A program made the translations under genes and the position numbers. From Phycisphaerales bacterium (GTDB taxonomy: Bacteria; Planctomycetota; Phycisphaerae; Phycisphaerales; UBA1924): a stretch of 64,000 nt of DNA. The notes beneath the pieces were generated by a model, which was given only the letters and a program-made list of their open reading frames with translations, searched no databases and was not told the DNA's origin. Of this stretch, positions 40,435-58,416 are shown piece by piece (position 1 is the stretch's first letter; each line of letters starts with the position of its first letter). Location: the NCBI GenBank assembly GCA_017642965.1, contig JAEPOJ010000001.1, positions 1 to 64,000 of the forward strand, given 5' to 3'.

Positions 40435-41673
40435 TCATTCCCCGGCCAGCACGCGTGGATGATGCATGATGACCCGGTCTTGTATCGGCCCGTGTTCTCC
40501 CGGATCGATCTCGATGATGATCGAATCCACCCCCTGAGGCAACGACGTGTTGATGCTCGCGGTTGAAGCGTCCAAGCGCATCCGCTGCTCGAAGATCTGC
40601 CGCTCACGCCCCGAGCCGACGGTGATCACCCGCAGCACACAATCCGTCCATTCCTCGATCGGAACCTCGATCGAGCAGGCAAACCGTGAGGCCCCCTCGG
40701 GCAACGGGTACGAAACACGGGCCGGCGATCGAAAATCGATGCTGCGAAGGGCCTCGTGCGTCGCGTTCTCATTCAAGACAATCGGGGTCGGCACCCAGGC
40801 CCGCCCCCCGACGGGCTCGATGTCTTCGGGCTCGATGGAAGCCAGAGACACGACCCGCTGCCCAGGCGCGGATACCCATAGCGAGTCGAGCGAGCCCGAA
40901 TTCAGGCGCCACTCGGTGTGCCCGGTCTCCAGCATTCCCAACGAGACCGGATCAACACTGATCTCGATCGGGCTCTGAGCGCTGTACCTGAACCCGAGCA
41001 CGCGGATCACCTCACGGTCCGCAAACCGCAGATATATACCATCCAGCGGGGCGGACTCGTTCGCGATGTGGATCTGCTGGATGCGTGCGGATTCAAGCTC
41101 GATGGCCGTGTCATCCAGCGCGACTCGCACGACAGGCCCGATTGATTCCACAAACCCCGACACACGATCACCGTTGCGCAGAACGACCAGATCATCGAGA
41201 AGTTCTGCCGGGGGATGCGGGTCGCGAACGTCCTGATCAACGATACGCAGAACGCGCTCGAGCGAAACATGAGCGTCGCCGTGCATCTTCATACCGGCGA
41301 TCAGGTTGATGCCCAAATACTCTGGCAAATCGGATTCGATGATACTGCCACGCACCGTCTGCCCGTCCGTAAGCGTGATCAGGCGGACCGGGCTGGGCTC
41401 CGGGCTCGGTACACCGACAATCTCTCCCGGGATCGCGGGCTGATCGGGCGCTGTTTTTACGACGAAGAGCACCTCGTCCATCGGCATCACCGAGCGGATG
41501 CCGTAGCTGTTCATGAGCGTCAACTCGCGCTCGTTGGCTCGCTCGATCAGCGTCTCACGCAGGCGAAGATCGCGCGTGCAGATCGTCCAGCCGCCCTTGA
41601 TCGTCTGGGCTCCGGCCCCCGCGATACAGGCGGCGAGGGTCATCATCGGAATGAGTGGGCTTCGTCTCATCAT
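40435..41673 (-). CDS. Secreted protein with NPCBM-like C-terminal domain
   Basis: 412 residues. The signal peptide covers residues 1-23 (LIPMMTLAACIAGAGAQ). A middle region has two similar beta segments (ITLTDGQTVRGSIIESD and VVLRNGDRVSGFVESIG), an SH3-like pattern. The last 120 residues resemble an NPCBM domain: HEALRSIDFRSPARVSYPLPEGASRFACSIEVP, then VLRVITVGSGRERQIFEQ and VDSIIIEIDPGEHGPIQDRVIMHHPRVL. Such domains bind carbohydrate in other proteins. It is the last gene of the long minus-strand operon, and its start overlaps the preceding stop as ATGA. Confidence 0.7.
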   Translation of the reverse strand: MMRRSPLIPMMTLAACIAGAGAQTIKGGWTICTRDLRLRETLIERANERELTLMNSYGIRSVMPMDEVLFVVKTAPDQPAIPGEIVGVPSPEPSPVRLITLTDGQTVRGSIIESDLPEYLGINLIAGMKMHGDAHVSLERVLRIVDQDVRDPHPPAELLDDLVVLRNGDRVSGFVESIGPVVRVALDDTAIELESARIQQIHIANESAPLDGIYLRFADREVIRVLGFRYSAQSPIEISVDPVSLGMLETGHTEWRLNSGSLDSLWVSAPGQRVVSLASIEPEDIEPVGGRAWVPTPIVLNENATHEALRSIDFRSPARVSYPLPEGASRFACSIEVPIEEWTDCVLRVITVGSGRERQIFEQRMRLDASTASINTSLPQGVDSIIIEIDPGEHGPIQDRVIMHHPRVLAGE

Positions 41674-42722
41674 TTCTGAAAAATCGGCAGGTAGCGTTTG
41701 GGCATCTGAAGCACAATCAGCGCCATCGCGGTCCCATACGGCGGACCGACGGAGCGATCATCCCATGAACCATCATCGTTCTGTGACGCGAGCAGTTCCT
41801 GGCGCACGGCCGGCCACCAGATCTCCCAGAACCGTCCCCCAGCGAGGTACATGGACTGCACGGCGTAGTACTGACCGTAGAAATAGTGAGACCGGGACGG
41901 GCTGGACTTGCCGGGCAGCGCGTTCGTCTCCAGATACCCGAGCCCCTTTTCGATCGCGTCATCCTCATAGATTCCCGCATAGAACAGCGAGGCAACGCCC
42001 GCGGCGGTGCGGGGCCAGGCGCTGTTGCCCGACCCGAGCTGATACTTGAATCCCCCGTCCGAGTTCTGGCACATCCGCACATACTCAACGGCCCGGTCGA
42101 TCACCTGCGCGTTGACCTCGATGCCCGCGTTCCGTGCGCTGCGCAGCGCCATGATCTGGCAGATCGTCACCGACACGTCCGCATCGTATGGGACCGGGTT
42201 GTATCGCCATCCCCCCTCGTCGTTCTGGGTCTGCTCGATCAGTCGAACCGCCTTGACAAGCGCCTCATGGACACGGTCGGAACGCGGGTTGTCGCCGCCG
42301 GGCGTCATGCCGTAGACCTCACCGAGGAAGAGGGTCGCGAAGCCGTGACCGTACATCGGGCCGTTGTTGGCCTCCGACGTGATCAGCCCGGATTCCTTGG
42401 ACGTGCTGAGGATGAAGTCGACTCCACGATCCACGACATCGCCCAGCTCACCGCGCCCCGGCATGTGCCCATCGCTCATCAGCGCGAGGCACGCGAGCGA
42501 TGTGATCGCCACGTTCTTGCCGTATCGCCCGGACTCCCACGCGCCATCGGGCTGCTGCGTCTCCGCGAGGTAGGCGATCCCAGCGCTGACCGCCGCATCG
42601 AGCTCAGGCGTGATCTCCTGCTCGAGCGGGTTGTTCTGAGCGCCCGGAGCGGGCGTATCAGCCGGCTGCGCGCCAACCGTTGATGCCGCAAACACGATGG
42701 CCGCGATACCGGTTCGCATCAT
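41670..42722 (-). CDS. Squalene-cyclase/prenyltransferase-repeat secreted protein
   Basis: 350 residues with a signal peptide (TGIAAIVFAASTVGAQPAD). At least five QW-type alpha/alpha repeats follow: IAYLAETQQPDGAWESGRYG, AITSLACLALMSDG, TQNDEGGWRYNPVPYDADVSVTICQIMAL, CQNSDGGFKYQLGSG and ASQNDDGSWDDRSVG. This is the toroid fold of terpene cyclases and prenyltransferases. The DxDD acid motif of squalene-hopene cyclase is not evident; DADVS is the closest. It is more likely a binding or structural toroid than a cyclase. Both ends overlap neighbours as ATGA. Confidence 0.8.
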   Translation of the reverse strand: MMRTGIAAIVFAASTVGAQPADTPAPGAQNNPLEQEITPELDAAVSAGIAYLAETQQPDGAWESGRYGKNVAITSLACLALMSDGHMPGRGELGDVVDRGVDFILSTSKESGLITSEANNGPMYGHGFATLFLGEVYGMTPGGDNPRSDRVHEALVKAVRLIEQTQNDEGGWRYNPVPYDADVSVTICQIMALRSARNAGIEVNAQVIDRAVEYVRMCQNSDGGFKYQLGSGNSAWPRTAAGVASLFYAGIYEDDAIEKGLGYLETNALPGKSSPSRSHYFYGQYYAVQSMYLAGGRFWEIWWPAVRQELLASQNDDGSWDDRSVGPPYGTAMALIVLQMPKRYLPIFQK

Positions 42723-43390
42723 GGGTTCTCATCCTCCGCCAGTGCCCGGTAGTACTCCTCGGTGAGCGTGCGGTACAGCTCAGAGTACCGGTCCGAGAAC
42801 CCCTGTGACAACGCATCGCGGATGCGCTGCGGCAGCGCGCCCCAGCTCACGCCGTCGGGCGCGAGCGCATCGCCGGGGCTGGCGGCGGAAGACCCGCCGG
42901 GCATCGCTTCCTGCCCCGCCTCGTTGCCCGGCGCATTCTGCTGCTGATCGCCCTGACCCTGCTGTTGCTGCTGATCGGGTTGCTGCTGGTTCTCTGATGA
43001 CGATGACTGCGAGCTCGAAGACCCACCACCGCTGCCCAGCTGGTTGTTCTGCGCGGATTCGATGACCTGATCGAGCTTGCGGAGAATGTCTTCCTGCAGG
43101 CGCTGCGTCGCGATCGATACATCCGCGTCCGTACCGATCCGCTGCGCGACCTGGTCCATCAGCTTGACCGCCTGACCGAGCGCCTCACCCGCCTCCCGCG
43201 GTGAGAGAACCTCACGCAGCGCCGCCTCGTTCGGGTCCGTGCCGTCCGCCTGCTCTTCGAGCCCGAGGAGCTCATCCAGAGACGGGAGCGTCGCCGCACC
43301 GCCCGGTTCTTCCGCTGGCTGCGCAGCAATCCCCGGAGCAAACAAGCCCACGGACAAGGCGAACAGAATGGTTCGGTGCAACGGCGTCAT
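42719..43390 (-). CDS. Secreted Gln/Ser-rich protein of unknown function
   Basis: 223 residues. The signal peptide ends at GIAAQ (about residue 23). A helical segment (about 65-120, LGQAVKLMDQVAQRIGTDADVSIATQRLQEDILRKLDQVIESAQNN) precedes a low-complexity region of Ser and Gln (about 122-160). The C-terminal helix (ALPQRIRDALSQGFSDRYSELYRTLTEEYYRALAEDENP) resembles the ends of other proteins in this operon type. Junctions on both sides are ATGA overlaps. No domain recognised. Confidence 0.7.
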   Translation of the reverse strand: MTPLHRTILFALSVGLFAPGIAAQPAEEPGGAATLPSLDELLGLEEQADGTDPNEAALREVLSPREAGEALGQAVKLMDQVAQRIGTDADVSIATQRLQEDILRKLDQVIESAQNNQLGSGGGSSSSQSSSSENQQQPDQQQQQGQGDQQQNAPGNEAGQEAMPGGSSAASPGDALAPDGVSWGALPQRIRDALSQGFSDRYSELYRTLTEEYYRALAEDENP

Positions 43391-46300
43391 GGCTGGGTTC
43401 CATCCATATCTACCGGTTCGATCGGTTCCGAGTTCCCCGTTTCTCCACCTTCGCTCGGTGATTGGGGCTGCGCGGGGGAGGGATTCATTTTCTCGATCAG
43501 CGCCGCCCCCTGCTCGAAGAGCTGCTTCTGCAGACGCCCGAGCGATTCTGCGCGGGACCTGTCCGATTCACCCGACTCCGCCAGCGATCTGGTCTGCTCC
43601 ATGACGAGCTCCTGCATCGAACGCAGCAGCTTGAGCTCGGAGACCGGCGGGATAAGCGGCTCGTCGCCACCACTCTGCGATCCTCCCGAGTTGGAACCCT
43701 GCGAGCTCGAACCGTCCTCGAAGTCTTCCTGCTGCTGTTGCTGTTCCTTGAGCACATCGATCAGGGACGCGAGCACACGCATCGCCTGTGTTTGATTCGA
43801 TCGGGTCAGCGGCTCAATTCTCCGTTCTCCAAGCCCCCGCGCACTCTGCTCCATCAGCCGATCGAGCTGCTCGTGCGCGAGGGTGAAGATCGGGGCATCG
43901 CGGAGACCCTCGTGCGTATCCGGCATCTCGCCCAGCGTCTTCGAGAGCGATTCCTGTTCCGCGCCGAGCGCCCGAGCACGAGAACGCTCACGGCGATCGA
44001 GGTTCTCCTGCCCCAGCGCGAGCGTCTCCTCATGAATCCGTGATTGCGTGTCCAGCGCCTCCTCGTACTGCTTGCGCAGCTCGTCACGCGCACGCTGCAT
44101 CTGCCGCTGCGCCGCCTGATCATCCAGCCGCTGCGCCTCCTCGAGCGCGTTGCGAAGATGGTTCAGGGCCGTGTTCTGGCCGAGCTGCGCCTGCTCCGGA
44201 TCTGCCGGATCGGAGCGCAACGCGTTGATGGCGCTGCTCTGCGCACCGCCTGCCCGCGTGATATGGTCCGCGATCGATCGCGTCTCGGGGAACGCGCCGA
44301 GCGCTTCGTCACGCACGCTCAGCGTGTTGCGGACCAACGCGATCAGCCGCTCGTCCATACCCTCGAACTGCTGATCGAGCATCATCGCATCCAGGCGGAC
44401 GATCTCCCGCTCCTGCGCATCGATGAGCCGCTTGAGCGAATCCATGATCGAAGCCAGCTCTCGGCGCAGGGCGTTGTCCCGGTTCTGGATCGTGTTCTCA
44501 AGCTCCTCAAGCAGCTCCTCAAGTTCCTCGAGCACCTCTTCCTGGGTCTGGGCCGCGCTGCTCGTCTGGTTCTGCTCGATCTGCGCGCCCGCCTCTCGCA
44601 GCTGCTGCTCCAGCTGCGCCGCACGCGCCTGGCGCGCCGCACGCCGGAGCGCCTCGGCCTGCGTCGGATCATCTTCCTCAAGCTCTTCCGCCCGCTCGTC
44701 GAGCGCATTGATCGCGTTCCGTGCGTCCGCGGCGTTCTCGAGCTGACGCTGCAGCACCTGCTCCAGATCGCTGCGATCCTCCGGGCTCATCTCCTGCAAC
44801 GATTGGCCAGCCGTACGCTGCGCAAGCTCCTCGGTCTGCTCTTGAATCGACCTGAGCTCCTCACGCAGCTGCTGCACGTTCCGAAGCGCGAGCCACGCGT
44901 CCTGACCCTGATCGAGCAACGCGAGCAGATCTCCCAGGCGGTTGCGGACCTGGCGCTGACTCCGCTGGGCATTGTCCTCTTCACCGCGGCGGATCTGATC
45001 GTCCGCCTGCTCGCTCTGGCGGGACGCCTCCTCAATCACGCTCGCCGCGTCCTCGATCGTCGTTCGGAGCGCTTCGTCACCGATCGCGTTCCGCCTGAGC
45101 GTATCCGCAAGCTGATCCAACGCGTTCTGGTTCGCACGCAGACGCTCGCTCAGCGAGCGTTGCTCGTCCGCGGCCCTGGTGCTCCCGTCCTCAAGCAGGC
45201 CCTGAACCTCGCCCTGACGCTCGTCGAGCGCGCGGAGGTTGTTGCGCAGCGGGTCGAGCGCCCGCCGGACCTGTTCGATGAGCTCTTCCTCAGCAACGAT
45301 CCGAAGCACACGCACGCCAGAACGGGCGTAGCCAAGCCCCTGCTGCCCGGTTGGGGTACGAAGGTCATGAGCGTCCGACCAAACGTGGACCTCATCTCCC
45401 GGCTCGAGCTGAGCATCCGCAAAGCTGATCGACTCTTGAATACGCGCTTCCGTCGTGTGTTCCAGCGTGAACGTGCCGATCTCCACCGGTTCTCCCGCCG
45501 GCTCAGGCGGAGCGCCACTCGAACCCGCAGGCGAGGTGTGCCTCTGGAACCAGACGCCCGCCCGCGTCAGACCGAGGTCATCCCCAATCTCCGCGATGAC
45601 CTCGATCGTCGCGCTCGCCGTGAGGTTCTCATCACGCCTCGGCTCGACCAGTCGAACGCTGGGCACCAGGTCCTCGATCACCTCCAGCGTCAGCGAGATC
45701 GATTCACGCACCGGCACACCGCTCTTGTCCGAGATCGCCGGCTCGATGAGCAGCGACTCGCGGGCATCGAGCACGAGCTCAAGCCGCCGGTCATCCGGTC
45801 GCGTGTAGGACTCAACCCGCGCGTGCTCGAGCACACGCTCAATCCAAGCTGGCGGCGCATCGTCGTCAGCGATCGCCTTCGAGAACGTCCAGCTGATGCG
45901 TACACGGGTATCCTGAAGAACCGGCCCGATGATGTACTCCGCTTGATCGGTCACGCGGTCCCCGGACTCGACAACGCCGGCACCCGCGATCGGCTCGGCG
46001 TACGCCGGGAGCTCGAGCCCGATCCGCGTCTCAACGAGCTCAGGCGGCCGCACCAGCCGGATCTTCTTCGTCGAGGTCCGATCGTCGCGCGTCGATATCC
46101 GGTATTCCAGCGTGAACCGTTGATCCTCTGGGCGACGGGAGGCGCGATCCCGTGGATCGATCAGCTGCTCATACACCGGGATCCCACGCTGGGAATCCCG
46201 CCGGCGCTGCGGCATCAGCAGCGTCTGGGTCCAGTCACCAATCGCACGCCCATCCTCATCAAGCACACGCCAGTTGACCAGGGCCCGCGCCGGGCTCTCA

Positions 46301-46989
46301 AGCGAGCTCGTTTCGTTGCCGATCAGCGCACGCAGCGGGACCGGGACATCGACCGCGCGAGACGCAGCTGGCGTCGTGTCCCAGATCGCAAACCGCACCG
46401 GCCATCGTGCGTCCTGCCAAGGCATGAGCACACGCTGGGCACCGACCTCCAGCAGGCTCAGATTCAGGATCCCCACCAACGCGATGACCGAGAGCACCGC
46501 GAACAGCCCCGCCGCGGGCCGAGCGAGCACCGCTGGGCGCAGCACCGACGGCAGGCGCTGACGTTCCAGGCGATGGTCCGCGGTCCGCAGGACGGCCTCC
46601 CGCAGCTCGGAAGCGTACTCCTCCTCATCCGTCGACCGCCGGTCCAAATCGATCGCACTCGCGAGCACGCCACGCATCGCCGGCTCGTGTCGCTCGATCA
46701 GCAGCGCAACGTCCGTCTCACCCATCCGCGAGCGAATCGCGGGGAAAACACGACGCAGGATCAGCCGCGCCAGCAGCGCCCCCAGCGCGAGCAGCAGCAC
46801 CACGCGGACGCTCCCCGGCAGCCGCAGCAGGTAATCCGCGCCAGCGAGAACCAGCACGCACAGCGCCATCAGCGAGAGCGTGACCATGAGCGACCGCGCA
46901 ATCAGCAACGCTCGAACGCGCGAAGCGATCGACCGCAGCCTGCGGCGCAGACGCCGGATGGTGCTCGGGATGGCTTGCGTCTCGTTCAT
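43387..46989 (-). CDS. Very large membrane-anchored coiled-coil protein (DUF4175-like)
   Basis: 1200 residues from the ATG at 46989, chosen because it overlaps the upstream stop as ATGA. Two or three N-terminal helices are visible (SLMVTLSLMALCVLVLAGADYLL and VRVVLLLALGALLARLIL), and another near residue 160 (AAGLFAVLSVIALVGILNLSLLEVG). A beta-rich middle lies at about 190-560. From about 590 to 1100 there is a long Gln/Glu/Arg/Leu coiled coil, then a Ser/Gly/Gln segment and a helical C-terminus. This architecture is that of DUF4175-type proteins found with VWA/BatA genes. It probably acts as an envelope scaffold. Confidence 0.75.
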   Translation of the reverse strand: MNETQAIPSTIRRLRRRLRSIASRVRALLIARSLMVTLSLMALCVLVLAGADYLLRLPGSVRVVLLLALGALLARLILRRVFPAIRSRMGETDVALLIERHEPAMRGVLASAIDLDRRSTDEEEYASELREAVLRTADHRLERQRLPSVLRPAVLARPAAGLFAVLSVIALVGILNLSLLEVGAQRVLMPWQDARWPVRFAIWDTTPAASRAVDVPVPLRALIGNETSSLESPARALVNWRVLDEDGRAIGDWTQTLLMPQRRRDSQRGIPVYEQLIDPRDRASRRPEDQRFTLEYRISTRDDRTSTKKIRLVRPPELVETRIGLELPAYAEPIAGAGVVESGDRVTDQAEYIIGPVLQDTRVRISWTFSKAIADDDAPPAWIERVLEHARVESYTRPDDRRLELVLDARESLLIEPAISDKSGVPVRESISLTLEVIEDLVPSVRLVEPRRDENLTASATIEVIAEIGDDLGLTRAGVWFQRHTSPAGSSGAPPEPAGEPVEIGTFTLEHTTEARIQESISFADAQLEPGDEVHVWSDAHDLRTPTGQQGLGYARSGVRVLRIVAEEELIEQVRRALDPLRNNLRALDERQGEVQGLLEDGSTRAADEQRSLSERLRANQNALDQLADTLRRNAIGDEALRTTIEDAASVIEEASRQSEQADDQIRRGEEDNAQRSQRQVRNRLGDLLALLDQGQDAWLALRNVQQLREELRSIQEQTEELAQRTAGQSLQEMSPEDRSDLEQVLQRQLENAADARNAINALDERAEELEEDDPTQAEALRRAARQARAAQLEQQLREAGAQIEQNQTSSAAQTQEEVLEELEELLEELENTIQNRDNALRRELASIMDSLKRLIDAQEREIVRLDAMMLDQQFEGMDERLIALVRNTLSVRDEALGAFPETRSIADHITRAGGAQSSAINALRSDPADPEQAQLGQNTALNHLRNALEEAQRLDDQAAQRQMQRARDELRKQYEEALDTQSRIHEETLALGQENLDRRERSRARALGAEQESLSKTLGEMPDTHEGLRDAPIFTLAHEQLDRLMEQSARGLGERRIEPLTRSNQTQAMRVLASLIDVLKEQQQQQEDFEDGSSSQGSNSGGSQSGGDEPLIPPVSELKLLRSMQELVMEQTRSLAESGESDRSRAESLGRLQKQLFEQGAALIEKMNPSPAQPQSPSEGGETGNSEPIEPVDMDGTQP

Positions 46990-49349
46990 GCGAGTCTCAG
47001 GGCACGCCGCCCGATCCATTCAAAGGTTAAAAGGGAGATCAGCACGATCAGCACGATGGGTCGATCCCAGAGCGAAGCACGCCGGGGTGGAGAAACCACG
47101 GTCCGCGCACGGTTCGGCAGCGAGTCCGGGATCTCCGCGAACGTATCGGGCTGCGCAACCCATCCGCCCGAACTCGACGCGAGCGTCATCAGCGAATCGT
47201 GATCCGTGTTCAGCACCCGCCCCTCATCGGCCCGATCGAACACACGCACACGCTGAGCGATCGAAACCATCTCCGCATCGAGCCCGAGCGGGCGGACCTC
47301 GAAGGTCCCGGCTCGGGAAGGGAGCCACACGCCCGTGCGGGTGTCATTGATGCCGCTGAGCTCGATTTCCACGGGCTCCCCGCGGTCCGCCAGCGATGAC
47401 ACACGCACCCGCACACGTTCCGGCAGCAGATCGATCCGCTGCTGGTCGAACACGCGCAACGTGATCTGCGTCGCCTGACCCGCGGAGGGCTCACTCGGCG
47501 TCACGAGCAGCTCCGCAGGCGCAGCACGCCGCGCAACCGTGCCACGCCCCAGCGCACGCACAAGCGGGAGCCAGAACCGCTCCGGGAGGTCTTCTCCACG
47601 CCCGTACCGCCACCGCCAGATCTCATCGGTCGCGACATACGCGCTCATGCCCGCACCGTATCGCATCATGGTCACGACGGGCGCCTGCTCGGCAGAATCA
47701 GCCGCGTACGCATGCGCGAGCACGCTCACACCCGGCTTGAAGCTCGTTTTATCCAGCGCCTGCGCCCAGCGAAGCCTGGACCAGCCGGTGCCAGCATCAC
47801 TCAGCCGATCAAGCCAGCCCTCCCCGTCCTCGCTCAGCCGCAGAACCCCGAGCCGCGTCGCCTCCGCAGTTGCTCCCATCGTGACATCCTGACCCCAGGG
47901 ACGAGTGATCGACTGCGACCCGCCCGCGTCCGCACGCATCGGCAGCAGCGCGGAGATCGGGGAGGTCAGGTACGCGTCCGGCACGGCGCTGGGGCCGGCG
48001 ATCCAGAGCAGCCCCGCTCCACGCGTCAGCACATGATCCCGCAGCGTCTCGAGCTGCTGCGTAGAAAACAGCTCAGCACGAACATCGCCGAGGATGATCA
48101 CATCGAATGGCTCCCACTCCTCGAGCGTGGTCGGTATCCGCGCGATCAGCTCGTCACCCTCCTGGATATACCGCCGGGTAGCGGAGAGCAGCATCGACGA
48201 ACTCACGATGGACTGCTCACGCAGGAGCATGAACTTGAGATAGCGGTGTTCCCACCGGGGATAGCCATCCACATACAGCACACGCAGCGGCCGCTCGACC
48301 ACACGCATCGCGATGCTCTGCGCGTTGTTCCCCGGGTTGAGATCGTCGCTCCCGACCCGAGACACAACGCGGACCTCGAGGCGGCGTTCGCCGTCACCCT
48401 CAGGGGTATGCATCAGCGTCACGGGCGAAGGGTCCCCATCCTCTGCGTTAACCATCTCCGCCGTGATCGCGACCCGCTCGAGCACCTCGTTGCGTTCCGG
48501 ATCGAAGAGCTCGACCCAGGCCGGGTTGCGAGCGAGCTCTTCACGCCCGTACCCCTGCCCCTCGATGTGCACGCGTATCGGCGCCAGGTCATCGCTGAAG
48601 ACCGCGTCCGGGTGCTCGACCCGCGCGATCGCGAGGTCCCGGATCGGCTCTCGCCCACCGAGGGGAACGGTGATCAGCGGGATCTGCCGCTCCGCCAGCG
48701 ATTCGATCAGCTCAGGATCGATACCACGCGTCGACCGCCCGTCGCTCACAATCACGATCGCAGAAATAGGGCGCGCGGCCGCGCGACGCAGCGCGGTCCG
48801 GATCGCGAGATCGATATCCGTGCCCTGCCCCTGCGGAGCGTCAAGGTCCGCGGGGTCGATCGCACCGGACTCGCCCAGCACACGCAGCTGCTCGTCGAAC
48901 CCCATCCACAGCACACGCTTGTTCTCGCCAAGCTCCGTCCAGGCCTCTGAACCCGACGCGAGCATCGACCGAAGCTGCGCATCCCGGGTCATACCCGCGT
49001 CGGTCGCATCCGCCACAGCCAGCGAGCCAGACCGGTCCAGCAGCACAAGAACCCAGTCGGACTCAGCCTCGATGATGGTCTGCTCGATGCGAGGACCAAG
49101 CGCGAGCAGGAACAGCCCAACCAGCACAACGAAGCGCGAGAACGCCAACGCCGCACGCAGCCCCTTCCGCCCCGGCAGCGCGCGGTACGACCACAGCACC
49201 ACGATCAGGATCAGGATCATCACCAGGACGATCATCCACGCGGGGAGATGGTGCACGAAGCCCGGCGAGGCGTCGGGCGTGCCAAAGCCCAGCGACTGCC
49301 CATCGCCGGAGGCACCGAGCCCGAAGAGCGCGTTCAGCAGATCGTTCAT
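46986..49349 (-). CDS. VWA/amidotransferase-like membrane protein
   Basis: 787 residues. Two N-terminal helices (WMIVLVMILILIVVLWSY and FVVLVGLFLLALG) precede a VWA-type domain with a MIDAS-like motif in LVLLDRSGSLAVADA (about residue 104) and IVIVSDGRSTRG. A central part (RVLYVDGYPRWEHRYLKFMLLRE...DVIILGDVRAELFSTQQLETLRDHV) is the class I glutamine-amidotransferase-like fold. The catalytic Cys is not evident. There is a C-terminal helix (IVLIVLISLLTF). It is the partner of the BatA-like gene upstream; both junctions are ATGA overlaps. Confidence 0.8.
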   Translation of the reverse strand: MNDLLNALFGLGASGDGQSLGFGTPDASPGFVHHLPAWMIVLVMILILIVVLWSYRALPGRKGLRAALAFSRFVVLVGLFLLALGPRIEQTIIEAESDWVLVLLDRSGSLAVADATDAGMTRDAQLRSMLASGSEAWTELGENKRVLWMGFDEQLRVLGESGAIDPADLDAPQGQGTDIDLAIRTALRRAAARPISAIVIVSDGRSTRGIDPELIESLAERQIPLITVPLGGREPIRDLAIARVEHPDAVFSDDLAPIRVHIEGQGYGREELARNPAWVELFDPERNEVLERVAITAEMVNAEDGDPSPVTLMHTPEGDGERRLEVRVVSRVGSDDLNPGNNAQSIAMRVVERPLRVLYVDGYPRWEHRYLKFMLLREQSIVSSSMLLSATRRYIQEGDELIARIPTTLEEWEPFDVIILGDVRAELFSTQQLETLRDHVLTRGAGLLWIAGPSAVPDAYLTSPISALLPMRADAGGSQSITRPWGQDVTMGATAEATRLGVLRLSEDGEGWLDRLSDAGTGWSRLRWAQALDKTSFKPGVSVLAHAYAADSAEQAPVVTMMRYGAGMSAYVATDEIWRWRYGRGEDLPERFWLPLVRALGRGTVARRAAPAELLVTPSEPSAGQATQITLRVFDQQRIDLLPERVRVRVSSLADRGEPVEIELSGINDTRTGVWLPSRAGTFEVRPLGLDAEMVSIAQRVRVFDRADEGRVLNTDHDSLMTLASSSGGWVAQPDTFAEIPDSLPNRARTVVSPPRRASLWDRPIVLIVLISLLTFEWIGRRALRLA

Positions 49350-51526
49350 GCCCGAACCCCCCTTCCCTCGGCGCCCATCGCCCGCTCACTCGCGAGCAAA
49401 CGCTGCGTAAAGAGTCGGGCCAGCAGGAACTCGAGCACGCCGCAAGCGAGCGCCCACCAGAGCGCCCACAGCGCCAGCCGGTTCCGCTCACCCTCGAAGA
49501 CCTCATCCATCACACTCCGCGATTCGCTTGTGTCCTGCGCACCGATCCACCGCAGCTCGGGCGCCTCAACAAATCGCTCAATCTGCTCCGCGACCTGCGC
49601 CTCCTCCACAGCGTCAGCAACCGCGCCTTCCGCGTCGGCCCACACGACCTGCGCCGCGCGCGTCAGCCCCTGCGCGTCGCGCAGGGCGAGCACGCCCGCC
49701 GAGGCGTTCAGCCCCAGCGCCGGATCGGTCGCAGACTCATCCGCCTGCAACTCAACCACACGGACACTCTCCACCCAGCTCGGGCGTGGCAGCGGATCGC
49801 CTGCAATGACCGCCTGATACAGCTCGCTCAGCCCGACGCCCTGTCGCACGAGCTCCTGCACCATTGCTACAAACAGCGGCCGCGCGGGAAGATTGCTCCA
49901 CCCGAGATCGAACGCCACCGAGAGCACGACCAGCATCCCCTCGCCTTCGCGACCCCGAACCTGAACACCGAGAAGCGAACCGTCAGACATGCTCGCGATC
50001 GGCTGCCCGCCAGATCCGAGATCCAGCGATCGAAACACAGAGACGCCACTGATCAGCTGCTCAAACTCGCTCCCGATGCCCACGAGCAGACTGGCGGATT
50101 CGATCCGTGGATCAAGATTCAGGGCGGGCTCATGTGCCCGCGCATCAACGACCTGGCCGAACGCGCCTGGTTCCATCCCCCGCACCCGCTCAATCCACGC
50201 GAGCGATTCGCTCTGGGTATCCGGTGCAACCACAACCATGACACCCTGATCACGCAACCGCTCGACACGATCCCACGCGGCGTCGTTGAGCTCCGCCGGC
50301 GAGAGGACGAACACAACGTCAACTCCCTGAACGAGGCGCGCAGCGGCCTGGCTCGCATCAACGCTGGTGATCTGCACGCCCATGTCACCACGCGGCGCGA
50401 GCGCCGCACGCAGCCAGCGGGCGGGAGGGATCGCCCCGCCTCCCCCGATCGCCGCGTCCCGGGGCCGGTCAACGATCGAAACCCGCAGCGCGTTGCGGAT
50501 CGGCAGGGGCACGTACGCGCCGTTGTCACGCGGGTTCACGTCCTCACTCAGCTGCACGCGGAGCAACGCGCTCGACGCCGCATCCGCCTGCAACCCATCC
50601 GTACGGATCGCGATGCCGACCGTGCGCGACCGCTCCCCGGTCCGCCACGTGATCACGCCAGTGCCACGCGTCTGCCCCCGTGTATCGATGACCCTGATCT
50701 GCGTGCTGTTCTCGCTGCCGACCTCACCCGATCGGACAAGCTCGATCTGGATCGACTCCGGCATGGACAGCCCGTCCCTGACCAGCAGCGTGCGTGTCGG
50801 TTTCGCCGAGCGGATCCCAACATTGAGCGCAGGCGTCGGTTCAGGCGAAGGCAGCAGCACCGAGTCAAAAGCCTGGCGGACCGGCTCATCCCGCATCCCG
50901 GATACGGCATGCTCGAACGATCGTGCATCGCTCGCGATCATCAGCTGCCTGCCGCCCTCACGATCTGCACCGTCATCAACACGAGCGACATGCCCAAGCA
51001 CCCCCCCGAGGTCGAACGCGGCATCCGTCGACTCCGCCTGCTCGATCAGCGTGCGGACCGCCCCGAGATCATCGCTCGCGGGGAGCACGATCGGGCGGGC
51101 AGGGCTCGAAGCGGAGATCAGCGCCACGCGATCGCCCATCACCGGATCGAGCGTGTCGAGCTCAGCGATCGCGCTCTCCTTGCTCAGCTCCAGCACCGTC
51201 GAATCACCGACGGTCCGCGCGGACGAAATGGAATCGTCCAGCACCAGGACCAACGTGCGTGCCTGACGCGTGCCCGCCCCACGCCCCAGCACGATCGAGC
51301 CCACACCCAGCGCGATAAACAGCACCAGGAGACACCGCAGCGAGAGCAGCACGAGCTGCTCGAGCGTGATGATGCGACGACGCTTGCGATACGCCTCCTC
51401 GAGAAACCGCATAGCCCCCCAGGAGACGACCCGCCGACGGCGCTTAAGCAGGTGGATGATGATCGGGATCGACACGCAAGCGGCCCCGATCGCAAACAGC
51501 AGCGGATGAAGAAACGAGAAGGGCAT
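49346..51526 (-). CDS. BatA-like VWA membrane protein
   Basis: 726 residues. The N-terminus is the BatA signature (FLHPLLFAIGAACVSIPIIIHLLKRRRRVVSWGAMRFLEEAYRKRRRI), followed by a second helix (LVLLSLRCLLVLFIALGVG). The VWA-like domain starts LVLVLDDSISSARTVGDS and keeps a DxSxS metal site. A large beta-rich periplasmic part and a C-terminal helix (LALWALWWALACGVLEFLLARLF) complete it. In other bacteria BatA-type proteins work with MoxR ATPases and DUF58 proteins in envelope stress tolerance. DUF58 is directly upstream here. Confidence 0.85.
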   Translation of the reverse strand: MPFSFLHPLLFAIGAACVSIPIIIHLLKRRRRVVSWGAMRFLEEAYRKRRRIITLEQLVLLSLRCLLVLFIALGVGSIVLGRGAGTRQARTLVLVLDDSISSARTVGDSTVLELSKESAIAELDTLDPVMGDRVALISASSPARPIVLPASDDLGAVRTLIEQAESTDAAFDLGGVLGHVARVDDGADREGGRQLMIASDARSFEHAVSGMRDEPVRQAFDSVLLPSPEPTPALNVGIRSAKPTRTLLVRDGLSMPESIQIELVRSGEVGSENSTQIRVIDTRGQTRGTGVITWRTGERSRTVGIAIRTDGLQADAASSALLRVQLSEDVNPRDNGAYVPLPIRNALRVSIVDRPRDAAIGGGGAIPPARWLRAALAPRGDMGVQITSVDASQAAARLVQGVDVVFVLSPAELNDAAWDRVERLRDQGVMVVVAPDTQSESLAWIERVRGMEPGAFGQVVDARAHEPALNLDPRIESASLLVGIGSEFEQLISGVSVFRSLDLGSGGQPIASMSDGSLLGVQVRGREGEGMLVVLSVAFDLGWSNLPARPLFVAMVQELVRQGVGLSELYQAVIAGDPLPRPSWVESVRVVELQADESATDPALGLNASAGVLALRDAQGLTRAAQVVWADAEGAVADAVEEAQVAEQIERFVEAPELRWIGAQDTSESRSVMDEVFEGERNRLALWALWWALACGVLEFLLARLFTQRLLASERAMGAEGRGVRA

Positions 51527-51529
51527 CGC

Positions 51530-52555
51530 TCAAGACCCCCTCAGCGTCGAAGCCGCGTTCCGACGGGCAACAAACTTCGCCAGCGTCGGCCCCAGCCACT
51601 TGTGCGTGGACACAACCTTGTGGTCGAACCCGAACGATCGTGCGTGGTGCGAAACCAGATCAATATGATTGTTGATCGACTCCAGATACGCCTTCCGCAG
51701 CGCCCGCGGGTCGATGCGGATCGTCGCCTCAGACTCGAGCCCCTCAAACGCGGCGGGGTCCTCAAACTCAAAGCTCAGCTCCGCCTGATCCAGCACCTGC
51801 AACGCGATCAGATCGTGGCCGCGGTGCTTGACCTTGGCGAACGCGGAGCGGATGTGCTCAGGGTCCTCGAAGAAATCCGAGATGATCACGATCAGGCACT
51901 TGTTCGAGATCTTCGCGAGCGTCTGGTCGATCGCCCGCAGAATATCAGTCTCACAGTCGATCGGATGCGTCGCGAGCGCATCCACGATCTGCTTCCAGCT
52001 CGACTTCCGCGCAGACCGCTCCACCATCGCCCGCAGCTCGTCGGCATAGACCGCCAGCCCAACCCGATCGCCCTGGTTGATCGTGATGTACGCCATCGCC
52101 GCCGCCGTCGCCGTCGCGTGATCGAACTTCGACCAGTTCGGACGCCCATCCGGAGCCACATCCCGCGCCGAACCCGAGGCATCTGAGAACAATCGCGACC
52201 CGAACCGCATCGACCCCGAGGAGTCCACCAGCAGCACCAGGTCCAGCGTCGTCTCCTGCTGATACTGCTTCACCTGCAGCTTGTCCGTCCGCGCATAGAC
52301 CTTCCAGTCCAGATGGCGGATGTCATCACCCGCCACATACGGGCGGTGCTGAGCAAACTCAACCGAAACCCCCGTGTAGGGAGACCGGTGCTGCCCCGCC
52401 ATCACCCCCTCCACGATCATCTTCGCCCGCAGTTCCATCGTCGAGAGCCGCGACAGCGTCTGGGGATGCAGATACAGGTGCGGATCGAACCGCTCAGACG
52501 CCGCGACAGGCGGCATGGCATTGGGCTCGGCAGGTTGTGCTGGGTGCTCATCCAT
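51530..52555 (-). CDS. DUF58 domain protein
   Basis: 341 residues, cytoplasmic. The DUF58 block FAQHRPYVAGDDIRHLDWKVYARTDKLQVKQYQQE (about residues 66-100) is unmistakable. It is followed by a VWA-like metal motif in LVLLVDSSGSMRFG. The later CLIVIISDFFEDPEHIRSAF is also typical. It is the first gene of the minus-strand operon, 3 bp before the BatA-like gene. In most genomes a moxR ATPase precedes DUF58; here the upstream neighbour is the divergent pfk, so the ATPase must be elsewhere or absent. Confidence 0.92.
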   Translation of the reverse strand: MDEHPAQPAEPNAMPPVAASERFDPHLYLHPQTLSRLSTMELRAKMIVEGVMAGQHRSPYTGVSVEFAQHRPYVAGDDIRHLDWKVYARTDKLQVKQYQQETTLDLVLLVDSSGSMRFGSRLFSDASGSARDVAPDGRPNWSKFDHATATAAAMAYITINQGDRVGLAVYADELRAMVERSARKSSWKQIVDALATHPIDCETDILRAIDQTLAKISNKCLIVIISDFFEDPEHIRSAFAKVKHRGHDLIALQVLDQAELSFEFEDPAAFEGLESEATIRIDPRALRKAYLESINNHIDLVSHHARSFGFDHKVVSTHKWLGPTLAKFVARRNAASTLRGS

Positions 52556-52693
52556 GAACGCTCTTTATCGTACCGGAACGGGCCGAGCCGGCTGCTCGAA
52601 TCGTCCCAGAACTCGGGACGAAATATGGATCTTCATATCCCAGCGATGCATTCCACAAGGCATAACACCTCTGCAACCGATAGCATTTCACAT

Positions 52694-53815
52694 ATGGCCA
52701 CAATCAACGACCGCGTCCCCGTCTCCCAAATCAAACGAATCGCCGTCCTCACCGGCGGCGGCGACTGCCCAGGGCTCAACGCCGTCATCCGCGCCGTCGT
52801 CAAGGACGCCATCAACTGCGGCATGGAGGTCTACGGCATCGAGGACGGCTTCCTCGGCCTCATCGAGGACCGCATCCGCCGCCTCGAGCTCGACGACGTC
52901 TCCAATATCCTCACCATGGGCGGCACCATCCTCGGCTCCAACAACAAATCCGACCCCCAGCGCTACCCCATGGGCACCGACGAGCACGGCAACACCATCT
53001 TCAAGGACCTCACCGACGTCTGCGTCACCCACCTCAAGATCCGCAAGATAGAGGCCCTCGTCGTCATCGGCGGCGACGGCACCATGTCCGTCGCTGAGCC
53101 ATTCTCGCACCAGGGCATCAACTGCATCGGCGTCCCCAAGACCATCGACAACGACCTCCACGGCACCGACATCACCTTCGGCTTCCAGTCCGCCGTCCAC
53201 GTCGCCACCGAGGCCCTCGACCGTGTCCACTCCACCGCCGCCTCCCACCACCGCGTGATGGCCGTCGAGTGCATGGGACGCAACGCCGGCTGGATCACCC
53301 TCCACGCCGGCATCGCCTCGGGCGCGGACGTCATCCTCATCCCCGAGATCGAGTTCGACCTCGACGTCATCTGCGAGCAGTGCATCAAGCGCTCACAGCG
53401 CGGCAAGCGCTTCACCATCATCGCCGTCTCCGAGGGCGCCAAGCCCAAGGGCGGCCAGCAGATCGTCGACCGCGTCGTCGAGGACTCGCCCGAGGCCATC
53501 CGCCTGGGCGGCATCGCCAAGTGGCTCACCGACGAGATCGAGAAACGCACCGAGATCGAGTCGCGCTACGTCGTCCTCGGCCACACCCAGCGCGGCGGCA
53601 CCCCCGTCGCCGGCGACCGCGTCCTCGCCACCCAGTTCGGTCACCACGCCATGCAGCTGCTCAAGATGGGCAAGGTAAACCGCCTCGTCGTCATGCAGGG
53701 CGGCGTGCTCGGCGATGTCGACATCCAATCCGCCGCCAACAAACAGCGCCTCGTCCCCAAAGACCACCCCCTCATCGCCGCGGGGCGAAGCGTGTACACC
53801 TGCTTCGGCGATTAA
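52694..53815 (+). CDS. pfkA: 6-Phosphofructokinase
   Basis: 373 residues from the ATG at 52694. Phosphorylates fructose 6-phosphate in glycolysis. Motifs: VLTGGGDCPGLNAVIRAVVKDA, GTILGSNNKSDP, VIGGDGTMSVAEPF and GVPKTIDNDLHGTD. The combination GGDG (Gly as in ATP-using enzymes) with PKTIDND (Lys as in PPi-using enzymes) is that of the plant-type/group III ATP enzymes, so ATP is the likelier donor. There is no clear Shine-Dalgarno; a weak TAGCAT lies 7 nt before the ATG. The strong bias to C-ending codons suggests high expression. Confidence 0.92.
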   Translation: MATINDRVPVSQIKRIAVLTGGGDCPGLNAVIRAVVKDAINCGMEVYGIEDGFLGLIEDRIRRLELDDVSNILTMGGTILGSNNKSDPQRYPMGTDEHGNTIFKDLTDVCVTHLKIRKIEALVVIGGDGTMSVAEPFSHQGINCIGVPKTIDNDLHGTDITFGFQSAVHVATEALDRVHSTAASHHRVMAVECMGRNAGWITLHAGIASGADVILIPEIEFDLDVICEQCIKRSQRGKRFTIIAVSEGAKPKGGQQIVDRVVEDSPEAIRLGGIAKWLTDEIEKRTEIESRYVVLGHTQRGGTPVAGDRVLATQFGHHAMQLLKMGKVNRLVVMQGGVLGDVDIQSAANKQRLVPKDHPLIAAGRSVYTCFGD

Positions 53816-55058: not shown

Positions 55059-55916
55059 TCAAGGACAGCCGCTGCCGTACGCACTCAGGAACGCGCTGAC
55101 ATCGAAGAAGTCGAACACACCATCGTCGGTGAAGTCCGCGATCGGGTCCAACGAGTTGAACGCGGTCAAAAACGCGCTGACATCAAAGAAATCAACCAGC
55201 CCGTCCCCAGTCAGGTCGGCAGGGCAGGGATCAATGACGCTGATGCTGAAGTTCGAAACCAGAGAGGCGGCAACCTCAACCTGATCGCGCTGCCCAACGC
55301 CGCTGTGCGAGAGGAGGATCCGCATCCGGTAGCTCCCCGATGGCGCGGTCAGCGGGATCGACCGAGAAAAGAACTCCGAACCTGTAGCCGACGTGTCGAT
55401 GATGTTCTCATCGAAAAAGAACCCCACGAAACCGCCGCCGACGACAGACTCGCTGCTCATGCTCAGGCGCACGAAGGAACGAAAGGACGTGCCGCTGTTC
55501 CCGAGCAGACCGTCGATCTCGATTTCACCCTCGCCATCGATGATAAACTGGTACTCGTACACACTCGAGAGCGTGTGCGCGAACGATCCCATCGCACCGG
55601 GCAACCCCGAATCCGAACCCATGAACGATGAGCCCGCGAAGAACGCCCCGCTCGATGCATTGAGCCGAGGCGCATAACCATTCACCGATCCGTCAAAGGT
55701 GCCATTGGCGTTGCTGAATCCCGCAACCGCGTCGGCAATGAGCGGATCAATCATCGCGCCCTGATCGTCGATGACCTCTTCAGCATCCGATCCGTTGCCA
55801 CCGGTGAGCGACAGACTGACATTGCTCGTAATGCTCGAATAGACCGGGTCCACCTGCGCAAGGACAGTGGGACACACGCACGCAACCAAAGCGGTGGCTG
55901 CCAGATAGTTCTTCAT
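55059..55916 (-). CDS. Secreted protein with GC-type dockerin
   Basis: 285 residues. Signal peptide residues 1-21 (YLAATALVACVCPTVLAQ). The body (about 25-225) is Ser/Gly-rich and beta-type (PYSS-like repeats, SFRSFVRLSMSSESVVGGGFVGFFFDE) with no named domain. The C-terminal 55 residues are the GC-type dockerin: CPADLTGDGLVDFFDVSAFLTAFNSLDPIADFTDDGVFDFFDVSAFLSAYGSGCP-like, with two DFFDVSAFL units. GAGGGA precedes the ATG. Convergent with the TM2 gene. Confidence 0.8.
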   Translation of the reverse strand: MKNYLAATALVACVCPTVLAQVDPVYSSITSNVSLSLTGGNGSDAEEVIDDQGAMIDPLIADAVAGFSNANGTFDGSVNGYAPRLNASSGAFFAGSSFMGSDSGLPGAMGSFAHTLSSVYEYQFIIDGEGEIEIDGLLGNSGTSFRSFVRLSMSSESVVGGGFVGFFFDENIIDTSATGSEFFSRSIPLTAPSGSYRMRILLSHSGVGQRDQVEVAASLVSNFSISVIDPCPADLTGDGLVDFFDVSAFLTAFNSLDPIADFTDDGVFDFFDVSAFLSAYGSGCP

Positions 55917-56085: not shown

Positions 56086-58272
56086 TCACATGCAGCCGTT
56101 CGAATACACCATCAGGAAGAGCGAAACATCGTGGAAATCAACCCCAAGGTCTCCGTTGAAATCCACGCTCGGGTCTGAAACCAGGTACGCCTGCAGCATC
56201 GCCGCGACATCGAAGAAGTTGAGTTCCCCGTCGTCGTTCACGTCTGCGATACACCCCGAGACGCAACGGTTGTTGAGATTGACCGAGTAGGTTTCATACT
56301 CGGTCACGAGCATCATGACCCCGCCTTGGTATCCGAAGTTAAACCACCCGGTCATGCTCGGAAGCATTCCCTCGATTTGAGGCGAGTACGGGTCTGAGAT
56401 ATCGAGCACCAGCATGCGCTCAAAGTCCGAGTTCCAAAAGGCGTACTCTCCAATGACCTGCAGATTCCGTCCCCGCCCAAAGCTTGTCACAGATCCATAG
56501 TCCACGAGATCATCAGTGGGCGAGGTGTAGATAATGTCATCCGAGTCGTTGATCCCGTAGAGCACACCATCGTGGATACTGATCTCGTCGAAAATGTCGG
56601 GTGCGGGATGATCGACTCGGATTGGGCGCAAAGGGTCACCCAGATCCACGACAGACAGTCGCTCGAAGGGTTCATCATCGATCTCCACGATCGCGCTGAG
56701 GTACAGCAATCCGTTCGCGAACATCGCGCCATCCGTTTGATCCGCGTGGTGCTTGTAATACGCTTTGAAGCTGATGTTGTTGATGTCCGCGATATCCAAA
56801 AGAACATGCTCTTCGTGATCAACCCGCATCCAGAGCGTATCCCCATCGATGCCCATCTCCTGGATCTCAGGGAACGCGGTGAAGTGAAGGATCCGCTCAG
56901 GGACTGAAGGATTGCGGAAGTCGACGATCTCTAATCCCTCGCCGTCGCGTCCGATGAACAGGATCCCATCCTTCACCTCGATGTGCTCGATCCAATCCAG
57001 GTCCGTGATATAGCTCGAGATCAGTTCTGGTTCCGCCGGGTCATCGATGTTGATCGCGGCGAGCGCGATACCCTCGACCTCTTTCATGTAATCATCGAAG
57101 TAATACGGCGCATAGAGCACGCCATTCTCGAGGCGGATGTCCGTGTCCAGAAAGTAGTGAAACCACTCGATCTCTCTGAATCCGGACCAATCGTCACTCA
57201 GAGGGAGCACCGTCTCGGCGCGTTCGAAGTCAAACCGAATCAGACCCTGTTCGTATCCAACGACGAGCGTGGCACCGTTGCTCGTCACACCCACGCCGCC
57301 GATAGAGGGCGCAGGAACACCTGTGTGCGCGATCAGGCGGGGCTTCTCGGGTTGCTCGACCGAAGCACGCAGCAAACTCCCGTTGTCTGCGCTGATCGTC
57401 AAGACCCCGTCCTGAAGATCAATCCCACTGCGACGGTTCACGCCGTACCCTTCTGCGAGATCATACGACGCGTAGTTCGACAGCAGCGTGAGCTCGTCCC
57501 CGCCCGGATCGAGTCTGAGCAGTTCAAATCGCGCGATCGGGCCATGCAGCAACATCAGGTCACCGTCGGTCCACACAGATGCAGCGCTCGTAACGTCCGT
57601 TGGGTGAGTTGCGACCACGATGGGATCGTTCAGATCCGAGATGTCATACGCATAAAGGACCTCACTACCGAGTGAGGCATAGACGCGATCGCCGCGAACA
57701 TCAAAGTCGCGCAGATCGAGTTCGGGTGTGCCGATGTGTCCCAACTCGATCGCGTTCGCAGGGTCCGCGATATCCAGCACCCTGATCACGCGGTCCGAGT
57801 CAAGGTAGTACAACCGCTCCCCTCGCACATGAAACTCCAGAGAATCATCGCCCAATCCGATGATCGCAACCTGATCGATCGCATTGGGATGCGACACATC
57901 CAAGATCAGGATCTGGTGATCATCGTCCGAATAGAGATAGAGGCGATCACCGTCCTTTCGCATCTTGTAAGAACTGTCGACTACAACCGAGTCGAGTGGC
58001 TGGGGGTACTCCGGGTCAGAGTAGCCCAACGCCATCAGCAATGACTGATCCTCTATCTCATCAAAGTGGATGACGTACGCGATGTTGCCGTCCACGAGAA
58101 GGCCATACGTCTCCCCCTCAGGTGTCGGCATATACGCGCCCAGGTATCCCTGCACCGCACACCCCAGCCCGCCCGGTTCGGTCTGCGCGGATGCGACAAC
58201 AGTGAACTGCATCGCCATGAATACAGCACAAAGACACCAACCCCGTAAAAGCCCGTACAATCTATTGATCAT
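56086..58272 (-). CDS. LVIVD-repeat secreted protein with GC-type dockerin (GCM ending)
   Basis: 728 residues from the ATG at 58272, where a signal peptide begins (RLYGLLRGWCLCAVFMAMQFTVVASAQ); upstream in-frame codons are rejected. About ten beta-propeller repeats of the LVIVD type follow, such as ILDVSHPNAIDQVAIIGLGDD, VLDIADPANAIELGHIG, YDISDLNDPIVVATHP and VLDISDPYSPQIEGML. The end is a GC-type dockerin (CIADVNDDGELNFFDVAAMLQAYL and FHDVSLFLMVYSNGCM) that finishes in GCM rather than GCP. It is an exported, surface-associated protein of unknown binding target. Confidence 0.82.
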   Translation of the reverse strand: MINRLYGLLRGWCLCAVFMAMQFTVVASAQTEPGGLGCAVQGYLGAYMPTPEGETYGLLVDGNIAYVIHFDEIEDQSLLMALGYSDPEYPQPLDSVVVDSSYKMRKDGDRLYLYSDDDHQILILDVSHPNAIDQVAIIGLGDDSLEFHVRGERLYYLDSDRVIRVLDIADPANAIELGHIGTPELDLRDFDVRGDRVYASLGSEVLYAYDISDLNDPIVVATHPTDVTSAASVWTDGDLMLLHGPIARFELLRLDPGGDELTLLSNYASYDLAEGYGVNRRSGIDLQDGVLTISADNGSLLRASVEQPEKPRLIAHTGVPAPSIGGVGVTSNGATLVVGYEQGLIRFDFERAETVLPLSDDWSGFREIEWFHYFLDTDIRLENGVLYAPYYFDDYMKEVEGIALAAINIDDPAEPELISSYITDLDWIEHIEVKDGILFIGRDGEGLEIVDFRNPSVPERILHFTAFPEIQEMGIDGDTLWMRVDHEEHVLLDIADINNISFKAYYKHHADQTDGAMFANGLLYLSAIVEIDDEPFERLSVVDLGDPLRPIRVDHPAPDIFDEISIHDGVLYGINDSDDIIYTSPTDDLVDYGSVTSFGRGRNLQVIGEYAFWNSDFERMLVLDISDPYSPQIEGMLPSMTGWFNFGYQGGVMMLVTEYETYSVNLNNRCVSGCIADVNDDGELNFFDVAAMLQAYLVSDPSVDFNGDLGVDFHDVSLFLMVYSNGCM

Positions 58273-58416
58273 GATGTCATCCCCATACCTGAGCCAGATT
58301 CCCTCCCGATCGAGCGCTAAGCGCGCGGAAGTCATCGGCTGGATCATGCAAGCAGATACGAGGGAGTACACCCAGTGGTTGTGGAGAACTGGTAAATTCA
58401 GATGAGATCAGGCCGC

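Follow-up and report, generated by a model that had tools for sequence, protein, structure and literature searches.

Here we describe a run of seven genes in a 64,000-nt stretch of DNA (the window) from a Phycisphaerales bacterium (GCA_017642965.1, JAEPOJ010000001.1; genome G000 in our comparisons). These genes, labelled A to G, are minus-strand open reading frames (ORFs) spanning positions 40435-52555. In our analysis, they probably represent the larger portion of an envelope system of the MoxR-VWA kind that is conserved in Phycisphaerales. In the genus of the window the genes of this system are split between two sites, and its MoxR ATPase would act on A-G in trans. Gene neighbourhood is commonly the sole guide to the partners of a MoxR ATPase. 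In this genus that neighbourhood has been broken up, but the two unlinked loci have been lost jointly in two lineages, and this still points to the partner.

A-G keep their order across the genus and in further families of Phycisphaerales (the compared loci come mostly from metagenome-assembled genomes of Phycisphaerales and Phycisphaerae), and homologues of gene C were found in 100 of the 118 Planctomycetota genomes sampled. An initial annotation of the window had proposed a single envelope machine, to be checked by conservation of gene order, and both set and order proved to be conserved across the order. In five families (f1-f4 and f6) moxR stands directly upstream of A, with dnaA beyond moxR in most of them, giving the arrangement dnaA...moxR-A-B-C-D-E-F-G. 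In G000, A-G lie beside pfk, no moxR was found next to them within the 64-kb window, and five strong moxR genes are located elsewhere in the genome. The one near dnaA (G000:C4:11051-12187) is found in the order dnaA, three opposed genes, extracytoplasmic function (ECF) sigma factor, anti-sigma factor, PDZ protein, moxR, rrf2, lysS. MoxR orthologues on the dnaA side share 72-91% identity within the genus, versus about 50% for the closest paralogues. In the MoxR tree, the dnaA-side MoxRs, that of G000 included, and all operon-linked MoxRs form one clade (SH-aLRT 97), outside of which fall the other G000 MoxRs (contigs C31, C23, C14 and C81). Judged by identity and tree, G000 has an orthologous MoxR.

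These results modify the view of the initial annotation, in which MoxR was absent and replaced by a divergent pfk. The absence holds locally, but the search for the nearest moxR led to the orthologue near dnaA, the place of moxR in other families. It is A-G that lie elsewhere, and pfk is merely their neighbour; we rejected pfk as a replacement because genomes with a moxR-linked operon do not have it there. We surveyed 136 genomes of the family, each at least 85% complete. Within this set, moxR lies within about 6 kb of C in nine genomes and within 11 kb in one (G120), and in sixteen genomes the two share a contig but are separated by 33 kb or more. Two genomes of family f5, G032 (contig C14) and G036 (C50), also have moxR at dnaA and A-G elsewhere, and in the tree the dnaA-side MoxRs of f5 group apart from those of f1. 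The simplest reading of the f5 split, given these groupings, is a second separation of moxR and A-G.

The two pieces are also lost together. Gene C is present in 128 of the 136 family genomes, and 123 carry both pieces, operon and moxR. Only G003 and G016, both from the genus of the window, are without A-G as well as the dnaA-side moxR. Searches of these two genomes found neither C nor F. DUF58 proteins exceeding 32% identity were likewise not found, nor were MoxRs exceeding about 53%, and the MoxR paralogues that were kept are about 50% identical. Their assembled dnaA loci read PDZ-rrf2-lysS, moxR being excised from between PDZ and rrf2. For G016, blastn comparison with its sister G013, which has A-G and moxR, resolves both losses: 12.5 kb with A-G at the pfk locus are reduced to 211 bp, and 1,237 bp with moxR at the dnaA locus to 244 bp. 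G003 and G016 are not sisters in the genus tree, and because G003 branches elsewhere than G016, two separate joint losses are likely. As moxR and A-G were lost together at two loci, we infer that MoxR serves the operon in trans. The loss from two lineages also means that the system is dispensable. The association between operon and MoxR across the survey (Fisher P 0.004) is a rough figure, since the genomes are related and the drafts gapped. Six further genomes without C (G063, G071, G101, G117, G119 and G154) were considered as operon losses and rejected, as orthologues of A and/or F are present in them.

Four points weigh against a functional bond between the two pieces. A MoxR orthologue was not found by search, the dnaA loci not being inspected, in seven operon-bearing drafts (G053, G059, G067, G071, G077, G086 and G119); these are 87-92% complete, and gaps may explain the missing gene. 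A common cause such as genome streamlining, with no functional bond between the pieces, could also lie behind the two joint losses. In G003 the pfk contig is short, at 6.2 kb, so that its lack of the operon was judged from searches in a genome that is 91% complete. Finally, one of the four further MoxRs retained by G000 might act on A-G.

Some further features of these loci were observed. The ECF sigma, anti-sigma-like and PDZ genes lie between dnaA and moxR in unlinked genomes (L063 10420-13166, G000:C4). G003 and G016 keep this set without moxR, and the linked genomes that were checked do not show it beside moxR. Two f5 genomes have an extra gene of about 1520-1550 codons between B and C (L070 10956-15527; L072 3281-7927). 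In G032, two diverged copies of the operon are adjacent (L075), and a third is found at contig C17 (L058). In G024 (L074 7872-14894), the gene immediately after A-B-C is a pfk on the same strand, and the stretch retrieved there does not contain D-G. Further MoxR-VWA loci are found in G000 itself. At C14 (L064) there is a Bat-like MoxR-DUF58-VWA-VWA locus, and at C31 (L061) a set of C-like, MoxR, DUF58 and BatA-like genes, a type that G003 and G016 also retain. At C23 (L062), a MoxR is accompanied by a BatA-like gene.

The genes of the run and their neighbour are as follows (aa, amino acids; TM, transmembrane; SHC, squalene-hopene cyclase).

51530..52555, minus strand: gene A, DUF58 protein, 341 aa (Pfam DUF58, E 6.5e-43)
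49346..51526, minus strand: gene B, BatA-like protein, 726 aa (BatA PF07584, E 1.2e-10; TIGR02226, E 6e-13)
46986..49349, minus strand: gene C, protein with VWA and GATase1/DUF7408-like domains, 787 aa (family matches, weak structure matches, TM scan)
43387..46989, minus strand: gene D, three-TM protein with immunoglobulin-like (Ig-like) and helical-bundle parts, 1200 aa (AlphaFold model, fold matches)
42719..43390, minus strand: gene E, small exported protein, 223 aa (signal-like N-terminus, position kept in relatives)
41670..42722, minus strand: gene F, exported toroid, 350 aa (PF13243, E 1.3e-15; SHC structures, E 2e-12)
40435..41673, minus strand: gene G, exported CBM51-like protein, 412 aa (AlphaFold model, CBM51 fold match)
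52694..53815, plus strand: divergent pfk, neighbour of A at the present site of A-G

The start of pfk (52694) is 138 bp from gene A. Elsewhere in the window, 55059-55916 and 56086-58371 encode two exported-looking proteins with common C-terminal repeats of the DLTGDGLVDFFDVSAFLTAFN type, which resemble dockerin/EF-hand-type modules.

The ORF coordinates and strand given in the initial annotation were reproduced, as were its ATGA junctions. These 4-bp overlaps are found at five of the six junctions (positions 49349, 46989, 43390, 42722 and 41673), with the letters CATGAACG at B>C, CATGAACG at C>D, CATGACG at D>E, CATGATG at E>F and AATGATG at F>G. The A>B junction, a 3-nt gap, is the only one without overlap in G000. 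The ORF of gene D reaches 47019; the ATGA start at 46989 gives 1200 aa, and translation might alternatively begin at 47019. In G000, 15 of 89 other neighbour pairs on the same strand (gap at most 300; crude gene caller) show a 4-bp overlap, and against this background at least five overlaps in six junctions have a P of about 9e-4. Across up to 28 loci, the window's own included, the overlap is common at B>C (21/28), D>E (20/23), E>F (17/21) and F>G (11/20), but was seen in 10/27 at A>B and in only 3/26 at C>D. The C>D overlap is nearly private to G000. The initial annotation took all seven proteins to be translationally coupled with fixed stoichiometry; the overlaps suggest coupling, but the C>D overlap is not conserved, and fixed stoichiometry does not follow. 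A scan of 52400-52800 found no sigma-70 promoter, and no terminator was found 3' of gene G.

The gene products provided insights into how such a system may be arranged in the cell. A hydropathy scan detected no TM segment in A, and a motif search found an intact metal ion-dependent adhesion site (MIDAS), DSSGS; the protein is predicted to be cytoplasmic. The product of B has TM segments at 9-27, 58-76 and 684-702 and a VWA domain with DDSIS. Its TIGR02226 score of 48.8 bits, versus a cut-off of 23.05, identifies the BatA N-terminal double-TM domain. The product of C has TM segments at 35-53, 66-84 and 758-776 and a VWA domain with DRSGS, followed by a GATase1/DUF7408-like domain. In the gene C family, VWA was matched in 4 of 16 members and DUF7408 in 3 of 16, and the structure search gave weak GATase1-like and BatB matches. 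In both B and C the sequence shows a positively charged loop between TM1 and TM2, which would place their VWA domains in the periplasm.

The product of D had been described as a 1200-residue coiled coil. Instead, the AlphaFold model (mean predicted local distance difference test score, pLDDT, 84.4) predicts three N-terminal TM helices, an Ig-like beta region at 200-565 and helical bundles at 567-1168. Big_7 was matched in 6 of 17 gene D family members. DUF4175 matched one of the 17 at E 0.008, short of the cut-off, and did not match the D protein of the window. Matches to vinculin and catenin (Z 10-12) are within the range usual for helical bundles and were not read as a sign of relationship. 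The product of E, whose position is conserved, has a hydrophobic N-terminus consistent with a signal peptide and a Gln/Ser-rich linker. F is a single alpha-alpha toroid, squalene-cyclase-like and with a signal-like N-terminus, from a strongly conserved family (61% mean column identity in the alignment). G has N-terminal beta repeats and a C-terminal domain at 271-412 (AlphaFold mean pLDDT 84.1). Residues 272-409 match 2vmi (CBM51) with Z 14.9 and a root-mean-square deviation of 2.4 over 122 residues, in agreement with the CBM51 beta-sandwich fold. Insect-toxin structures, which are among the top Foldseek rows for G, were set aside as generic beta-sandwich matches in favour of better-aligned CBM51 rows. 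The G protein of the window has no Pfam match itself, and NPCBM was found in 4 of 14 members of its family (best E 2.7e-6), so that the earlier description of the last protein as NPCBM-like is borne out by fold and relatives. By fold, G appears to be sugar-binding-like, a shared fold indicating no particular ligand. Likewise, the chain of products from cytoplasm through membrane to exterior drawn by the initial annotation agrees with the TM scan and models. An anti-phage defence role was rejected, as PADLOC gave no match for the seven proteins or MoxR.

Other explanations of A-G and MoxR have to be weighed. A-G might have become independent of MoxR in this genus, needing no AAA+ ATPase of their own, in which case the dnaA-side moxR would serve some other purpose. 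The distance between A-G and moxR, which now stands between the ECF sigma/anti-sigma/PDZ set and rrf2-lysS, would fit this, as would the operon genes of the seven drafts without a detected MoxR orthologue. We consider it unlikely, as both pieces are missing in two separate lineages, with clean deletions in G016, and occur together in most of the surveyed family, and the unlinked MoxR is still well conserved within the genus (72-91%). It is more improbable still that another MoxR of G000 (C31, C23, C14 or C81) drives A-G. Four such proteins are available, and three of their genes are themselves linked to VWA or DUF58 genes; all four, however, are outside the clade of operon-linked MoxRs. MoxR of the C31 type comes with separate DUF58 and BatA-like partners, and G003 and G016, where A-G are missing, retain it.

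Between these two in probability, and likewise not favoured, is an ordinary Bat-like aerotolerance or stress operon in which D-G are lineage-specific passengers and genome position is uninformative. DUF58, the BatA N-terminus and VWA are indeed the Bat/MoxR set, and MoxR-VWA gene sets are widespread (PMC3893208, PMC5700661). Passengers would hardly account for D-G being conserved in order and position across families, or for the strong conservation of F, and G000 has a separate Bat-like MoxR-DUF58-VWA-VWA locus at C14. Meanwhile, the toroid raises the question of whether F could be a terpene cyclase, in an operon for the making or use of hopanoid-like lipids, as squalene-cyclase Pfam matches and distant matches to SHC structures might suggest. 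This we rejected as very improbable. F has 350 aa and one toroid, where a hopene cyclase has two domains and about 630 aa, and it scores 38.7 bits versus a hopene-cyclase cut-off of 431.1. The catalytic DXDD motif is not present in the gene F family alignment, which has [DE]AD[VIL]SVT in its place; the N-terminus is that of an exported protein, and no further terpenoid gene lies within the A-G run.

Based on these findings, we postulate how a system with MoxR acting on A-G in trans might work. The proposal starts from the observed gene content, order, split and joint loss, and its mechanism is drawn from established MoxR-VWA biology, namely the chaperone-like maturation of complexes (PMC3893208). 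A MoxR hexamer and the DUF58 protein A would act from the cytoplasm and, at the expense of ATP, would drive the assembly or switching of a complex that B, C and D form in the inner membrane. The VWA, GATase-like, Ig-like and helical parts of this complex would project into the periplasm. There it may work with the exported protein E, the toroid F and the sugar-binding-like G, and the probable target is a glycan of the envelope or the cell wall. Co-translation of membrane and exported parts is probably helped by the 4-bp overlaps. A more speculative extension, which we advance only tentatively, follows from the position of moxR after the ECF sigma/anti-sigma/PDZ set: the ATPase would be under envelope-stress control, while the membrane machine is expressed separately beside pfk. 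If true, motor and body of one machine would be under separate regulation and yet be lost as a unit from two chromosomal sites.

The MoxR-DUF58-VWA operon is already known, with RavA-ViaA, Bat and RL3499-RL3502 as its closest examples. The initial annotation considered the role of the toroid and the NPCBM-like protein in such a system not described, and in the openly licensed literature searched we found no paper on this gene set and no description of the D-E-F-G extension, the separation of moxR or the joint loss at two loci. Candidates for the end parts of a Planctomycetota envelope machine driven by MoxR are the toroid F, the CBM51-like G and the Ig/helical-bundle protein D. Joint loss in two lineages, with clean deletions resolved in one by comparison with a close sister, makes the MoxR-DUF58 partnership directly testable.

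A-G share several traits with the MoxR-DUF58-VWA (MRP-type) systems: gene A encodes a DUF58 protein with a VWA/MIDAS motif, the genome has a MoxR that is orthologous by identity and tree, and moxR is adjacent in other genomes, though not in G000. RavA-ViaA of E. coli is likewise a chaperone-like pair of a MoxR ATPase and a VWA partner; it differs in being cytoplasmic, linked to respiratory complexes and devoid of exported proteins (PMC3893208). The predicted archaeal secretion or surface system arCOG01314 combines a MoxR-type AAA+ ATPase and a VWA protein with membrane proteins bearing extracellular flavodoxin-like and Ig-like domains (PMC5898192). It is archaeal and a prediction only, and the account of it in that source, as far as consulted, mentions no toroid or CBM51-like protein. 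The Bat operon of Bacteroides and Leptospira has the BatA N-terminal double TM, VWA domains with MIDAS and a MoxR nearby, and a membrane/periplasm complex has been proposed for Bat (PMC3557215). A family search of the seven proteins did not find the BatB/BatD/tetratricopeptide-repeat set; D-G are in its place. The name Bat itself predicts little, since deletion of bat in L. biflexa gave no oxidative-stress phenotype (PMC3557215). In Rhizobium leguminosarum, mutation of RL3499-RL3502 affects cell morphology and membrane or envelope integrity, according to the description of Vanderlinde et al. 2011 cited in PMC5700661, and RL3499 is important for membrane integrity and cell morphology (PMC3893208). 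By that description, moxR lies inside the operon there, whereas it is apart from A-G in G000. Collectively, we read A-G as a MoxR-driven envelope complex, related to the Bat and RL3499-RL3502 loci.
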